Of a DNA stretch of 64,000 nt, positions 55,558 through 61,837 are shown piece after piece. Location: contig CAIYVZ010000052.1 of NCBI GenBank assembly GCA_903929755.1, positions 1 through 64,000 of the forward strand, given 5' to 3'. The position numbers were made by a program, and so were the translations under genes. Within the stretch, counting starts at the first letter, position 1; every line of letters starts with the position of its first letter. The stretch is from an uncultured Acidobacteriia bacterium (GTDB lineage Bacteria; Acidobacteriota; Terriglobia; Bryobacterales; Bryobacteraceae). A model generated the notes under the pieces. That model saw only the letters and a program-made list of their open reading frames with translations. It searched no databases and had not been told where the DNA came from.

Positions 55558-55584
55558 GACTTTGGATACGATATGATCCAACCG

Positions 55585-56592
55585 ATGAACAAGCTTGTGC
55601 TCGCGCTCTGCCTTTCGGCCTGCCTTCTCCCCGCACAGACCCTGAAAATCCTCTATCAGGGCGGCGACGAAAAGACGCTGCAGGAGTTTCGGGCCGTCAC
55701 GCCCAAGGCCCGCATTATCCCCGTCGACAGCTCCAATGTAATGACGGAAATTGTTGATGCGGATGGCTTTATCGGTGTCCTCACCCCGCAGCTCTTCGCA
55801 GCGCAAAAGCAGTTGAAGTGGGTCGGCAGCAACTCCGCCGGCGTGGAAAACCAGCTCTTCGTGCCCGGTGCCGAACCCTTCCGCAACTCCGACATCATTC
55901 TCACCAGCAATCGCGTCGTCCAGGGCATCGAGATCGCCGACCATGCCTGGGCTCTCCTGCTCTACACCTCGCGTGGTCTCCACCTCTTTCAGGAACACAA
56001 GCGCAACGAGAACTGGCAGCCCAAACCCTATCCCGGCATCGAACTTCGCGGCAAGACCGCTCTCATCATCGGCGTCGGCGGCATTGGTACTCAGATCGCC
56101 ATCCGCGCCTGGGCGTTCGGCATGCACGTCATTGGCGTAGATCCAGAAGACAAGCCCATCGTCCCCTACGTCGACCGCATGGTGCATCCCGACCTTCTCG
56201 ATGAGGTGATCCCCCAGGCCGACGTCGTCTTCATCTCCGCCCCCGACACGCCTAAGAGCCACAAGATGTTCGGCGCAAAGCAATTCGAGCTGATGAAGCA
56301 GAAAAGCTATTTCGTCGCCGTCAGCCGAGGCGGCGTCTACGACATGGGCGGTCTGGTGAAAGCGTTGGACAGCAACCGCTTAGCCGGCGCCGGTGTGGAT
56401 GTGACCGACCCCGAACCGTTACCAAAAGGTCACGCTCTGTGGAAATTCAACAACGTGATGATCACGCCCCACATCGCCGGGCGCTCCGATCATGACGTCG
56501 AACGCATGGCTGGGACCATCAAGGAAAACATCCGGCGTCTGGCCGAGGGGATGCCTCTGATGAACGTTATTGATAAGAAACGGGGCTACTAG
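55585..56592 (+). CDS. Exported D-2-hydroxyacid dehydrogenase
   Basis: A 335-residue NAD(P)-dependent D-2-hydroxyacid dehydrogenase. The Rossmann motif IIGVGGIGTQIA, the catalytic R in VSRGGVYDM, E in DPEPLP and H in TPHIAGRSD are all present. Unusually it starts with a cleavable-looking signal MNKLVLALCLSACLLPAQ; a NAD-dependent enzyme outside the cytoplasm would lack free cofactor, unless it is carried folded or uses another acceptor. ATG 55585 was preferred over 55573 because it gives the compact signal. Its neighbours are exported proteins too, so export is credible. It ends about 100 bases before the DUF1592 gene. Confidence 0.85.
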   Translation: MNKLVLALCLSACLLPAQTLKILYQGGDEKTLQEFRAVTPKARIIPVDSSNVMTEIVDADGFIGVLTPQLFAAQKQLKWVGSNSAGVENQLFVPGAEPFRNSDIILTSNRVVQGIEIADHAWALLLYTSRGLHLFQEHKRNENWQPKPYPGIELRGKTALIIGVGGIGTQIAIRAWAFGMHVIGVDPEDKPIVPYVDRMVHPDLLDEVIPQADVVFISAPDTPKSHKMFGAKQFELMKQKSYFVAVSRGGVYDMGGLVKALDSNRLAGAGVDVTDPEPLPKGHALWKFNNVMITPHIAGRSDHDVERMAGTIKENIRRLAEGMPLMNVIDKKRGY

Positions 56593-56690: not shown

Positions 56691-59111
56691 TTGACTCCAG
56701 TGATGTTAAAGGATAATGTGAACCGAGAGGCGTTAGTGAGCTTTCCCCCCTGTAGCGGACGTGTGTTTCAAGCGGTTTGTACCGCATTTCTTGCAGTTGT
56801 TTCTTGTTCGGTAGCTTTTGGCCAGTCCGGTGCCGCCCCCGCGCAAGCGGGTTCAGCATTGGTCAAGCAGTACTGTGCAGGTTGCCACAGTGCGAAAACT
56901 CGCGCGGGAAACCTGGCGCTTGAGGGGCTTGACCTTGCCAAAATTGGCGATGACGCCGCTACGTGGGAAAAGGTTCTTCGCAAAGTCGGAGCGAAGCAGA
57001 TGCCCCCGCTCAACGTCCCCCATCCGGACGCCGCAGCCCAACAGCAATTTCTTACCTATCTCGAAACCGAGCTCGACCGGGCCGCGGCCACCCACCCGAA
57101 TCCGGGCCGTGCCACCATCCACCGTTTGAACCGTGCGGAATATTCGAACGCTGTTCGCGATCTTTTTTCGCTCGATGTTCGCGCCGGCAATACCCTCCCG
57201 CTCGACGATACCGGTTACGGTTTCGACAACATCGGTGACGTCCTTTCGCTTTCGCCTGTTCTCCTCGAACGCTACCTCACGGCCAGCCGCATGGTCTCTC
57301 GTCTGGCCGTTGCCGATACCGACCTGAAGCCCGAAATCAATTCCTTTGACCTGGGTCGCGGTCGCGGAGCCCGCAATGAAGCGGTTAGTGAAGATCTTCC
57401 CTTCGGCTCCGGTCTCGGCCTCTCCTTTACCTACACGTTCCCGGTCGATGCCGATTACACTTTCAAGGTCCGCTTGCCCGCCCCCGCCCCCGGCTTCGGG
57501 GAAACTGCCGCGCCGGTGGGACAGGTTCTGGAACTCAAGGTCCCGGTGAAGGCCGGCGTTCGCCACGTTGGCATCTCCTTTATGCGCTCGAACGCTGTCC
57601 CCGAAACGCTGCCGGTCTTTGGCAACGGTCGTGGTGGCGGCGGTGCGGGCGTCGGCCGCGGGGGCGCGCCGGGCGCTTCCATGGCGCACCTCGACCTCCG
57701 CGTCGATGGCGCCCGCCTCAAGATGTGGGATGTTCCGGAAGGCCCCAATGGCCCCCGCTTCAACGATCTGTCTATCGGTGGCCCCTACGATGTGAAGCAG
57801 CAGAGTGAATCGGCCAGCCGCAAGATCATTTTCGGCGTCTGCCGTCCCGGTGGTCCCAAAGAAGAAGATGTCTGCGCCCGTAAGACTCTCACCGCGCTGG
57901 CCCGCCGCGCTTATCGGCGTCCCGTGACCGATTCCGACATCAAGCCCCTCATGACTTTCTATGCCAGCGGCCGCAAAGAAAAGTCGTACGAGTACGGGAT
58001 TGAAACCGCGCTCCGCGCCATGCTCGTCGCCCCCGATTTTCTATTTCGTGTCGAGCGCGATCCGGCCTCCAGCGCTGCCGCCTCACACCGCGTCAACGAC
58101 TTCGAACTCGCCTCCCGCCTCAGTTTCTTTCTCTGGAGCAGCATCCCGGACGAAGAACTGCTCTCACTCGCCGATCAGGGCAAGCTTCGCGACCAGAAGA
58201 TGGTGGAATCCCAGATCGCCCGGATGCTGGACGATCCGAAGTCCAAGGCCTTTGTCAGCAACTTCTCCGGGCAGTGGCTCTTCCTGCGCAATCTCGATCA
58301 GGTTAAGCCCGATCCCGATGTTTTCCCCCAGTTCGACGCCAGCCTGAAGAAGTCCTTCCAGCAGGAGACCGAACTGTTCTTTAACTCGATTCTCCGCGAA
58401 GAGCGGCCCGTCAGCGAATTTCTGGATGCGAAATATACCTTTATGAACCAGCGCCTCGCTGAGTTTTATGGCGTGAAAGGTGTCTTTGGACCCCAGTTCC
58501 GCCGCGTGGAACTCACCGACCCCCGCCGCGGAGGCCTGCTCGGTCAGGGCAGCATTCTGACGGTAACTTCGTATCCCAACCGAACCTCGGTGGTGCAGCG
58601 CGGCAAGTGGATCCTCGAAAACCTGCTGGGGACGCCGCCTCCGGCTCCGCCGCCCAACGTGCCGCCCCTTGACACTCACGGTAAAGAAGGCAAGCTGACC
58701 ATGCGTCAGGCGATGGAGGCCCACCGGGCCAACCCGGTCTGTGCTTCCTGCCATTCCAAGATGGACCCTCTCGGCTTTGCCCTCGAAAACTACGATGGTA
58801 TCGGCCAGTGGCGCGACACCGACGGCGGCGCGGACATTGATCCCTCCGGAACCCTGCCCAACGGTGCCTCGTTTAAGGGGGGCGCCGGTCTTCGGCAAGC
58901 CCTGCTGAATAACCACCGCGAAGAGTTCGTTTCTACATTTACGGAAAAGCTCATGATCTACGCGCTCGGCCGCGGTCTGGAACCTTATGACCGTCCGGTG
59001 ATGCGTTCCATCATGCGCGAAGCCGCCCGCCACAACACGACAATTCCCGCTCTGATAAACGCCATCATTCAGAGCCCCCAGTTCCAGATGAGGAGAAACC
59101 GCGAATCATGA
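56691..59111 (+). CDS. Large exported diheme DUF1592-family cytochrome
   Basis: An 806-residue protein (ATG 56703 is an alternative to the TTG used here). Residues after the signal (SCSVAFGQ) carry CAGCH at 62-66, the planctomycete-type cytochrome c domain; then the DUF1587, DUF1595, DUF1592, DUF1588 and DUF1585 set follows in order, with RLNRAEYSNAVRDLF, RRAYRRPVTDSD, FLFRVERDP, LGQGSILTVTSYPNRTSVVQRG, and PLGFALENYDGIG. A second heme motif CASCH is at about 684-688. The family is restricted mostly to Planctomycetes, Acidobacteriota and Verrucomicrobiota and has no proven substrate; oxidative polymer cleavage is a hypothesis. Its stop overlaps the DUF1552 gene by 4 bases. Confidence 0.88.
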   Translation: MTPVMLKDNVNREALVSFPPCSGRVFQAVCTAFLAVVSCSVAFGQSGAAPAQAGSALVKQYCAGCHSAKTRAGNLALEGLDLAKIGDDAATWEKVLRKVGAKQMPPLNVPHPDAAAQQQFLTYLETELDRAAATHPNPGRATIHRLNRAEYSNAVRDLFSLDVRAGNTLPLDDTGYGFDNIGDVLSLSPVLLERYLTASRMVSRLAVADTDLKPEINSFDLGRGRGARNEAVSEDLPFGSGLGLSFTYTFPVDADYTFKVRLPAPAPGFGETAAPVGQVLELKVPVKAGVRHVGISFMRSNAVPETLPVFGNGRGGGGAGVGRGGAPGASMAHLDLRVDGARLKMWDVPEGPNGPRFNDLSIGGPYDVKQQSESASRKIIFGVCRPGGPKEEDVCARKTLTALARRAYRRPVTDSDIKPLMTFYASGRKEKSYEYGIETALRAMLVAPDFLFRVERDPASSAAASHRVNDFELASRLSFFLWSSIPDEELLSLADQGKLRDQKMVESQIARMLDDPKSKAFVSNFSGQWLFLRNLDQVKPDPDVFPQFDASLKKSFQQETELFFNSILREERPVSEFLDAKYTFMNQRLAEFYGVKGVFGPQFRRVELTDPRRGGLLGQGSILTVTSYPNRTSVVQRGKWILENLLGTPPPAPPPNVPPLDTHGKEGKLTMRQAMEAHRANPVCASCHSKMDPLGFALENYDGIGQWRDTDGGADIDPSGTLPNGASFKGGAGLRQALLNNHREEFVSTFTEKLMIYALGRGLEPYDRPVMRSIMREAARHNTTIPALINAIIQSPQFQMRRNRES

Positions 59112-60478
59112 AGTCCCTGAGAAATGCCTTTTCTAATAAAGCACTAGACCGCCGCACCCTGCTGCGTGGTCTCGGCGCCACCCTGGCGCTCCCGTTCCTT
59201 GATTCCATGGTTCCGGCCATCGCGGCCACCACCCAGGCTGCCTCAAAAGCTCCTGTGCGTATGGCGTTCTGCTATGTGCCGAACGGTATTATTCCCAAGG
59301 ACTGGCTCCCGACGACCACTGGCCGCGGCTTTGAATTCACGCCTACCCTGAAGCCTCTCGAAGCGTATCGCGAGGACATGCTGGTGCTCAGTAATCTGGC
59401 GCAGATTAACGGCCGCGCTCTGGGCGATGGCGCCGGGGACCACGCCCGCGCCGGGGCCACCTGGCTGACCGGCGCTCACCCCAAAAAGACCGAAGGCGCG
59501 GACATCCACGCCGGTATCTCTGCCGACCAGGTAGCGGCCCGCCTCCACGAAAAAGAAACCCAGTTCGGCTCGCTCGAGCTGGGGCTTGAAGAGCCCTATC
59601 TCGCCGGCGGTTGCGACTCCGGCTATAGCTGCGCCTACACCAACACGCTCTCCTGGCGTGGTCCCACCACCCCGAATCCGGTTGAAATCAGCCCCCGCGC
59701 CATCTTCGAACGCCTCTTCGGCGATGGTGAAACCACCGATCCCGCTGCCCGCCTGAAGCGTATGGCGCAGGACCGCAGCGTCCTCGACTTTGTCCGCGGC
59801 GACGCCTCTCGTCTCGCGACCGGGCTTGGCGCGCGTGACAAGAGCAAGCTCGACGAGTATCTCGAAGCCATTCGCGACATCGAACGCCGCATCCAGAAGG
59901 CCGAACAGCAGTCCGCCACCATCAAAATGCCGGTAATGGAACGTCCGGTCGGAATTCCAGAGTCCTTTGAAGAACACGCCAAAATCATGGCCGATCTCAT
60001 GGTCATCGCATTCCAGACCGACATGACCCGCGTCATCACTTTCATGATGGCTCGCGAAGGCTCCAACCGCAGCTACCGCGAAATCGGGATCTCCGACGGT
60101 CACCACTCCGTCACGCACCACCAGAACGATCCCGAAAAGATTGCCAAGACCCAGAAGATCAACGAGCACCACGTGAAGAGCTTCGCGTACCTCGTGAAGC
60201 GCATGAAGGAGACGCAGGACGGCGATGCCAGCCTGCTTGACCGCACGCTGCTCCTCTACGGCTCCAGCATCCGCGAAGGCAACGTCCACGACCACCACGA
60301 TCTTCCCCTCGTGCTTGTCGGCGGAAAGGCCATCGGTATCAAGGGCGGGCGTCACATCCGGTATAAGGAAGAGACCCCGATGAACAACCTGCTCATCACG
60401 ATGCTCGACAAGTCCGGTGTTGCTGTCGAAAAGCTCGGCGACGCAAACGGTAAGGTCGATCAGTTGAGCGAGGTCTAA
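59108..60478 (+). CDS. DUF1552 exported protein, partner of the DUF1592 cytochrome
   Basis: A 456-residue protein with a twin-arginine-like start (LDRRTLLRGLGATLALPFLDSM), typical of DUF1552 proteins. It has FCYVPNGIIPKDWLP, DHARAGATWLTGAHPKKTEGADIHAGISADQVAA, and DLPLVLVGGKAIGIKGGRHI; this sulfatase/phosphatase-superfamily-like pattern has metal-binding D/H residues in GDHARA and SDGHHSVTHHQND. It always accompanies DUF1592 cytochromes. A Tat signal would fit a folded protein with a cofactor. Coupled by a 4-base overlap with the cytochrome and by 3 bases to the ankyrin gene. Confidence 0.88.
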   Translation: MKSLRNAFSNKALDRRTLLRGLGATLALPFLDSMVPAIAATTQAASKAPVRMAFCYVPNGIIPKDWLPTTTGRGFEFTPTLKPLEAYREDMLVLSNLAQINGRALGDGAGDHARAGATWLTGAHPKKTEGADIHAGISADQVAARLHEKETQFGSLELGLEEPYLAGGCDSGYSCAYTNTLSWRGPTTPNPVEISPRAIFERLFGDGETTDPAARLKRMAQDRSVLDFVRGDASRLATGLGARDKSKLDEYLEAIRDIERRIQKAEQQSATIKMPVMERPVGIPESFEEHAKIMADLMVIAFQTDMTRVITFMMAREGSNRSYREIGISDGHHSVTHHQNDPEKIAKTQKINEHHVKSFAYLVKRMKETQDGDASLLDRTLLLYGSSIREGNVHDHHDLPLVLVGGKAIGIKGGRHIRYKEETPMNNLLITMLDKSGVAVEKLGDANGKVDQLSEV

Positions 60479-60481
60479 ACC

Positions 60482-61837
60482 ATGAAGAAAGTTGTCCTGG
60501 CAGTAACCGTGGCTGGTTTGCTCGGTGGGATCATTCCGGCTGCGGCGTCAGAGTTGCGGCTGGTGGATGCCATCCGCGATCAGAACCGCAAGGCCGTTCT
60601 CGCTCTCATCAACAGCAAGGCCGATGTCAACGCCCCCCAGCCCGACGGCTCCACGCCTCTCGCCTGGGCGGCGCATGAGGATGACACTACTGTCGTCGCC
60701 GCTCTTCTCAAGGCGGGGGCGAAGGCGAATGTCGCTGATGAATACGGCGAAACTCCTCTCACCCAGGCCTGTGCCAACGGCAACGCTGGAATTGTGAAGC
60801 AGCTTCTGGATGCCGGTGCCGACGCCAATGCGGTTCGCTGGAACGGCGAATCGGCTCTGATGATCGCAGCTGGTTCCGGTAACCCGGAAGCCCTGAGGCA
60901 GCTCATCAGTCACGGCGCCAAAGTCGAAGCCACCGAAACCGTCAAGGGGCAGACGCCCCTGATGTGGGCAGTTGCTCATGGTCATTCTGAAGCCGTTGAG
61001 GTCCTGATCAAAGCGGGCGCGAAAGTGAATGCCCTGTCTAAATCGGGATTCTCACCTCTTGTTTTCGCTTCCATCCAGGGCAATCAGAAATCAGCCGAAG
61101 CTCTTATCGCCGCTGGTGCCGAAGTCAATTATGCGGTGCCAGCTGGCCTCAGCCCCCTCCTGGTTGCCGTCACCGCGAAGAAGAACGCGGTAGCGGACGT
61201 CCTGGTCGCCCACGGCGCCGACGTGAAAGCGAAGGACCGTACCGGCAACACTGCTCTTCATATCGCGGCACAGTTGGGGGATGTCAATCTTTCCAAGGCT
61301 CTCGTCGCCAAGGGGGCGGATGTCAACGCGAAGACCAATAAACAGCAGGCGGCGGGTGGCCGTGGCGGCGGTGGTGGCTTTTTCCGCGGACCCTCCGGCG
61401 AACAAACTCCCCTCATGCTGGCTGCGCGCGCCAATCATGCCGATGTTATGAAGGCTCTCGTCGCGGCCGGTGCGGACGCCAAAATTCGCGCCCAGGACGG
61501 CAGTACGCTGCTCATGGCTGCGGCGAACAGCGGTCATCTTGACCCGGTTGCCTACGCCTGGGAACTTGATCCCGGTGCCATCAAGGCGCAGACCGACACC
61601 AAATCCGAAGTGATGCACGCCTCCGTGAGCGGATCGCTGCAAGTCTCCACTCAGGACGAGGTGTGCAAGGTGGTGAAGTTCCTCGCCGACAAAGGCGCGG
61701 ATCTGGATCCCCTCGACGCTAACGGCCGCACGCCCATCATGATCGCCAACGTTTTGCCTATTGATAAGGCTGTAGAGCTGATCACCGGCCTGATCAAGGC
61801 TTCCGGGGCCGAACCAAAAGTCAAGACTACTCGTTAA
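60482..61837 (+). CDS. Exported ankyrin-repeat protein, third member of the cassette
   Basis: A 451-residue protein with a signal peptide (MKKVVLAVTVAGLLGGIIPAAAS). About nine to ten ankyrin repeats follow (DGSTPLAWAAHEDDTTVVAALLKAGA, NGESALMIAAGSGNPEALRQLISHGA and others), with a short Gly-rich insert (GGRGGGGGFF, about 300-310). Ankyrin proteins are usually cytoplasmic; here a periplasmic scaffold for the cytochrome/DUF1552 pair is likely. The start is 3 bases after the DUF1552 stop. A small hairpin AACCC-TTC-GGGTT followed by TT (61836-61850) sits on the stop codon and may partly end the transcript. Confidence 0.9.
   Translation: MKKVVLAVTVAGLLGGIIPAAASELRLVDAIRDQNRKAVLALINSKADVNAPQPDGSTPLAWAAHEDDTTVVAALLKAGAKANVADEYGETPLTQACANGNAGIVKQLLDAGADANAVRWNGESALMIAAGSGNPEALRQLISHGAKVEATETVKGQTPLMWAVAHGHSEAVEVLIKAGAKVNALSKSGFSPLVFASIQGNQKSAEALIAAGAEVNYAVPAGLSPLLVAVTAKKNAVADVLVAHGADVKAKDRTGNTALHIAAQLGDVNLSKALVAKGADVNAKTNKQQAAGGRGGGGGFFRGPSGEQTPLMLAARANHADVMKALVAAGADAKIRAQDGSTLLMAAANSGHLDPVAYAWELDPGAIKAQTDTKSEVMHASVSGSLQVSTQDEVCKVVKFLADKGADLDPLDANGRTPIMIANVLPIDKAVELITGLIKASGAEPKVKTTR

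Follow-up and report, generated by a model that had tools for sequence, protein, structure and literature searches.

In a 64,000-nucleotide stretch of contig CAIYVZ010000052.1 from an uncultured Acidobacteriia bacterium (assembly GCA_903929755.1; the whole stretch is called the window here), we analysed a cassette of three genes encoding a diheme cytochrome of the DUF1592 family, a DUF1552 protein and an ankyrin-repeat protein (Table 1). The cytochrome and DUF1552 genes overlap by 4 bases, and a 3-base gap separates the DUF1552 gene from the ankyrin gene. A sequence-only reading of this DNA had proposed these coordinates and junctions, the three families and a single coding unit for three exported proteins; the boundaries are borne out by the sequence, a Pfam scan confirmed the families, and the view of three exported proteins in one coding unit was supported. 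That reading had also named linkage in related genomes, beforehand, as a test on which it should stand or fall, and in the genomes examined the genes stay linked. The three-gene set is a real, conserved unit, and its linkage goes far beyond chance.

Table 1. Coordinates of the cassette genes, the heme-binding motifs and the cytochrome-ankyrin fusion
Feature	Coordinates	Strand	Basis and remarks
DUF1592 diheme cytochrome gene	56691..59111	+	Exported; Pfam domains, two CxxCH
First CxxCH, CAGCH, residues 62-66	56874..56888	+	Sequence
Second CxxCH, CASCH, residues 684-688	58740..58754	+	Sequence
DUF1552 (PF07586) gene	59108..60478	+	Twin-arginine translocation (Tat) leader; Pfam; sulfatase/alkaline-phosphatase-superfamily fold in model
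Ankyrin-repeat protein gene	60482..61837	+	Putative general secretory (Sec) leader, predicted exported; distinct family beside this DUF1592-DUF1552 type
PSCyt1-ankyrin fusion	L124:4258-6504 (G000:C7:78257-80500)		Sequence, domain scan

The three cassette proteins

In the cytochrome, PSD3, PSD5, PSD4 (DUF1592), PSCyt3 and PSD2 scored above the Pfam cut-off and a cbb3-type cytochrome c domain was also matched, while PSCyt1 lay slightly under its cut-off (20.4 vs 22 bits). The domains run from an N-terminal cytochrome c domain through PSD3 (DUF1587), a beta-sandwich at about residues 214-366, PSD5, PSD4 and PSCyt3 (DUF1588), with which the second CxxCH falls, to PSD2 (DUF1585). Both CxxCH sites are where the sequence-only reading had placed them when residues are counted from the TTG at 56691, a doubtful start, since an ATG four codons inward is at least as likely. 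Exactly two such motifs occur in the window protein and two in 66 of 67 aligned proteins (one in the remaining protein). M104, H678, C684, C687 and H688 are invariant in all 67, and two further cysteines are nearly so, C384 being present in 63 and C395 in 62. The first heme may have M104 as its axial ligand, and H678 may lie near the second. The AlphaFold model of the cytochrome (predicted local distance difference test, pLDDT, 88.4) gave no Foldseek match at 0.001, and most of the protein is therefore without an identified fold here, which does not imply a novel one. In this model the beta-sandwich weakly resembles a xylanase module, galectins and carbohydrate-binding domains (best Z 7.2, the galectin-like match scoring too low to indicate true relatedness).

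PF07586 matched the DUF1552 protein at full length (profile 1-307 of 307; 9.7e-109; 364 bits against a cut-off of 30). The twin-arginine-like leader proposed earlier held up, as the RR at residues 15-16 sits in a RRxxLRG-type Tat motif and is present in 77 of 77 aligned sequences (the window protein and 76 of the 80 related loci described below; L050, L072, L100 and L114 were excluded). Cysteines C169 and C175 are invariant in the aligned sequences, and the conserved histidines H112, H333, H337, H338 and H394 are candidates for a metal site. The DUF1552 model (pLDDT 86.3) matched sulfatases and nucleotide pyrophosphatases with Z scores of 16-18 (top 17.8) over 245-278 residues, which points to an alkaline phosphatase/sulfatase superfamily fold overall, but identity to these superfamily members is only ~7-12%. 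An hhalign comparison with one sulfatase-like protein of this genome, itself named from sequence only, showed no sequence-level link.

The third protein consists of ankyrin repeats (Pfam, 1e-72) behind a putative signal peptide that was read by eye. Of the 47 ankyrin frames from relatives, 46 had a hydrophobic leader according to a home-made heuristic that chooses the most favourable start and is not SignalP; L092 had none, and L051 and L081 were doubtful. Sequence searching of solved structures gave nothing better than E 0.86.

The ankyrin partner belongs to one cytochrome clade

The window's own genome carries 20 full DUF1552 genes and 20 DUF1592 genes, which form 19 pairs and leave one of each kind solitary. 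Ankyrin repeats were found in 11 frames, five of which adjoin a DUF1592-DUF1552 pair (the window, C163, C69, C55 and C112). With an ankyrin-family profile these five triad members scored 405-539 bits, against at most 148 for all others. In quick trees the five ankyrin-linked cytochromes formed one clade among the 19 own cytochromes (support 0.999), and the five DUF1552 partners did not form one. Fourteen of the 19 pairs have no ankyrin gene; one of these, L035, lies ~300 bases from a contig end. Directly upstream of two ankyrin-free pairs lie large outer-membrane beta-barrels with carboxypeptidase-regulatory domains (L027:12721-16263 and L028:2921-6220), and a 6.6 kb contig (L042, G000:C121) holds pieces of at least one DUF1552 gene in several short frames.

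We then took as related loci the matches, capped at 80, to a profile of the five ankyrin-type DUF1552 proteins, a sample biased by this choice and drawn mostly from Acidobacteriota. Ten were cut near the pair, leaving 70 assessable, and an ankyrin gene of this family lay within 600 bases in 42 of them (L078, whose ankyrin gene scores 66 bits, was not counted as linked). The DUF1592-DUF1552 pair was called in all 42 linked loci. The ankyrin gene was downstream in 24, divergent upstream in 14, upstream in the same direction in three and convergent downstream in one.

A cytochrome tree of 85 rows was built from the window, 66 of the 80 loci and 18 own paralogues; the gene was cut, missing or unassignable in the other 14 loci, four of them ankyrin-linked (L047, L056, L068 and L090). 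All ankyrin-linked rows fell in a single clade of 46 rows, which had a Shimodaira-Hasegawa-like approximate likelihood ratio test (SH-aLRT) support of 100. Among informative rows, 43 of 45 were linked inside the clade vs 0 of 37 outside (14 of the latter are own paralogues, including L035); the Fisher value of 2.6e-21 is not a true probability because the rows are related. The ankyrin partner thus belongs to one clade of DUF1592 cytochromes and not to all of them. The two clade rows counted as unlinked are L059 and L073, although a divergent ankyrin frame does lie 57 bases from the cytochrome frame of L059. Where L059 and L067 carry a second ankyrin gene, and L076 and L079 one farther away, that gene adjoins part of a further DUF1552 or DUF1592 gene. 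Among the clade-type loci are four from Pseudomonadota metagenome-assembled genomes (MAGs) and one labelled Acidimicrobiia, for which MAG binning errors are possible. The gene layout changed at least nine times on this tree, weakly supported forks included. As the trio is usually kept together in related bacteria despite these changes of order, its genes very probably form one working unit.

Nine residues mark the ankyrin-linked cytochrome clade, five of which (at 144-194) fall within or next to PSD3, a pattern that ancestry alone could explain. We also considered the ankyrin protein as a substitute for a lost middle cytochrome domain and rejected the idea, as segment lengths inside and outside the clade were not clearly different.

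From the ankyrin gene to the pair

In the reverse direction, a 16-row ankyrin profile was run against 119 genomes of the phylum, with at most 13 candidates scored per genome. Outside the own genome, 38 matches in 14 genomes reached at least 285 bits (25 of them from G077, G116 and G107); three lay at the end of a contig, and all but one of the remaining 35 (34, the exception being L196) stood beside a DUF1592-DUF1552 pair. Eight weaker matches were examined, three linked and five unlinked. Over all scores, 46 of 50 matches outside the own genome were examined and four low-scoring ones left out, giving 37 linked, three at contig ends and six unlinked (L196, two of G010, two of G004 and one of G050). 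At the level of the order, with at most 26 candidates scored in each genome, 41 of 61 genomes matched the ankyrin family, with up to 19 matches per genome. The best match in each of 20 order genomes was beside both genes in 17, beside DUF1552 alone in one and beside neither in two. One locus (L167, G107:C25) has three tandem cytochrome-DUF1552-ankyrin triads, the first cytochrome being truncated by the end of the extracted stretch.

A cytochrome-ankyrin fusion and variable flanking genes

The own genome also encodes an exported protein of 748 residues that joins a PSCyt1 domain to ankyrin repeats; it contains a second CxxCH as well, and its end weakly resembles squalene-hopene cyclases. It was matched in 21 of 61 order genomes, and 13 matches outside the own genome run from before residue 30 to at least residue 737. 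Most other matches in the order are without the cytochrome end, and in G139, G141 and G143 the front and back of the fusion match in separate, neighbouring stretches. In a second ankyrin protein of the own genome (L126:3960-6083, G000:C175) the end likewise resembles squalene-hopene cyclases weakly, and PSCyt1 was not matched.

The genes around the triads vary. The sequence-only reading had suggested that the cassette might be linked to two upstream genes, those of the PmoA-like (DUF6807) protein and the exported dehydrogenase, and this did not survive: at E 1e-10 the flanks of the 80 loci contained no homologue of either (a blast sanity check was made). A link to a downstream phosphoenolpyruvate (PEP)-mutase-like gene was also rejected, as it had no homologue in the 80 loci at the same threshold. 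The product of the upstream gene at 55573-56592 of the window is a 2-hydroxyacid dehydrogenase of the NAD type whose apparent Sec leader is odd for an NAD enzyme. Propeller domains of the pyrroloquinoline quinone (PQQ) type, PQQ_2, occurred in 8 of 68 clade flank genes (71 minus two of L050 and one of L059). Around other pairs a nucleoside hydrolase was commonest (5 of 57) and PQQ_2 was present in at most 1 of 57; these 57 control genes include the clade member L098 and nine loci absent from the cytochrome tree.

A model for the exported unit and its alternatives

In our reading, the ankyrin protein is a periplasmic partner reserved for cytochromes of this type. We favour, at slightly better than even, a reading in which the cassette encodes one exported three-protein unit whose ankyrin protein binds the diheme cytochrome and docks or assembles it. 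The DUF1552 protein would be exported folded via Tat, and the cytochrome and ankyrin protein via Sec. In the periplasm, the ankyrin solenoid would bind the cytochrome, alone or with DUF1552. The cytochrome would draw electrons from an organic compound, probably one derived from carbohydrate, either directly or via neighbouring enzymes that vary (PQQ dehydrogenases, for instance), and would hand them on toward the respiratory chain, and DUF1552 would contribute a metal-binding, phosphatase-like domain. In favour of this reading stand the linkage within one cytochrome clade across the layout changes, the reverse test, the fusion and its relatives in the order, the PQQ_2 domains beside clade triads and the weak resemblance of the beta-sandwich to carbohydrate-binding domains. 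Distance correlations across 36 triads (cytochrome-ankyrin 0.82, DUF1552-ankyrin 0.77, cytochrome-DUF1552 0.75, each exceeding the largest of 999 permutations) also favour it. A role in carbohydrate oxidation is supported, though not shown, by carbohydrate-binding modules (CBMs) on PSCyt proteins and by a DUF1592 protein with CBM2. A more ambitious proposal, which we offer tentatively and think probably too strong, is that the ankyrin solenoid joins a diheme cytochrome and a phosphatase-fold protein as the obligate third subunit of a periplasmic redox complex of a new class. Such a complex, expanded to more than 10 copies in some Acidobacteriota and perhaps using a different substrate in each, would be an oxidative counterpart of the polysaccharide-utilisation locus.

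Several observations weigh against the favoured reading. The 14 ankyrin-free pairs of the own genome manage without the partner, L073 has no ankyrin gene, the ankyrin genes of L196, L220 and L224 have no adjacent pair, and L218 has no called cytochrome. Co-inheritance raises all three distance correlations. The fusion is not a triad protein and has no DUF1592, and at E 1e-60 it was found in one of the 119 phylum genomes, the own one. The galectin-like match is sub-threshold, and the PQQ_2 excess is small and its control rough.

The ankyrin protein might instead be a maturation factor that delivers heme to the apo-cytochrome or protects it, by analogy with Cj1386, which serves the catalase KatA in Campylobacter jejuni; we regard this as unlikely. 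In both cases an ankyrin gene is paired with the gene of a heme protein. However, a review places Cj1386 among cytoplasmic proteins (PMC11442138), and sister DUF1592 proteins of the same genome are without such an ankyrin gene. Y88, the sole tyrosine invariant among the five own-genome ankyrin proteins and at most a candidate equivalent of the heme ligand Tyr57 of Cj1386, is kept in just 61% of 51 aligned ones. By textbook knowledge, c-type heme is attached by general machinery.

Somewhat less plausible again is that the ankyrin protein serves DUF1552 rather than the cytochrome, for example as a chaperone, inhibitor or substrate adaptor. The commonest layout, with the ankyrin gene directly after DUF1552 (24 of 42 linked loci), and the DUF1552-ankyrin distance correlation fit this idea, but in 17 of 42 the ankyrin gene has the cytochrome gene as its neighbour (divergent in 14, upstream in 3). 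The own-genome quick trees unite the ankyrin-linked members for DUF1592 and not for DUF1552, and the fused protein couples ankyrin repeats to a cytochrome domain. That the genes merely share a neighbourhood, co-inherited without direct functional contact, is very improbable: all encode exported proteins of a lineage rich in such gene pairs, but their adjacency has outlasted at least nine layout changes and recurs in Pseudomonadota MAGs.

Comparison with known systems

Cytochromes of the planctomycete type abound in several phyla, and the section on them in He et al. 2017 (PMC5615132) describes their function as wholly unknown. According to that section, PSCyt3 genes of Verrucomicrobia usually adjoin one family of unknown genes, which we infer to be DUF1552, and carbohydrate-binding modules on some PSCyt proteins suggest a role in carbohydrate metabolism; the cytochrome domains are the same as in the window, and an ankyrin partner is not mentioned there. 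An entry in a lignocellulose study lists a DUF1592 protein with CBM2 whose best match is in Cellvibrio (PMC6004670). That such cytochromes pair with a gene family of unknown function was already known, whereas our searches of the open-licence PubMed Central (PMC) literature turned up no account of an ankyrin partner for DUF1592/DUF1552 or PSCyt genes. With a fixed third partner, one clade becomes open to targeted study, and the partner also marks paralogues that share a functional type (5 of 19 pairs here).

The pairs of PSCyt2/PSD1 (DUF1549/DUF1553) with DUF1501 follow the same plan, a cytochrome-type gene beside a DUF1501 gene, but their families differ. This genome has one such pair in L037 and, in L030, one whose first gene is cut, leaving PSD1 only; no ankyrin gene was found in either locus. 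The C-terminus of DUF1552 aligned weakly with DUF1501 (hhalign probability 9.9). The nearest parallel for the third gene is Cj1386, an ankyrin protein that is encoded beside a heme protein and binds heme (PMC11442138, PMC9426514). The gene arrangement is alike, but Cj1386 is described as cytoplasmic and its partner is a catalase (PMC11442138); the cassette would show clearly how an ankyrin protein can be devoted to a heme protein that is exported.

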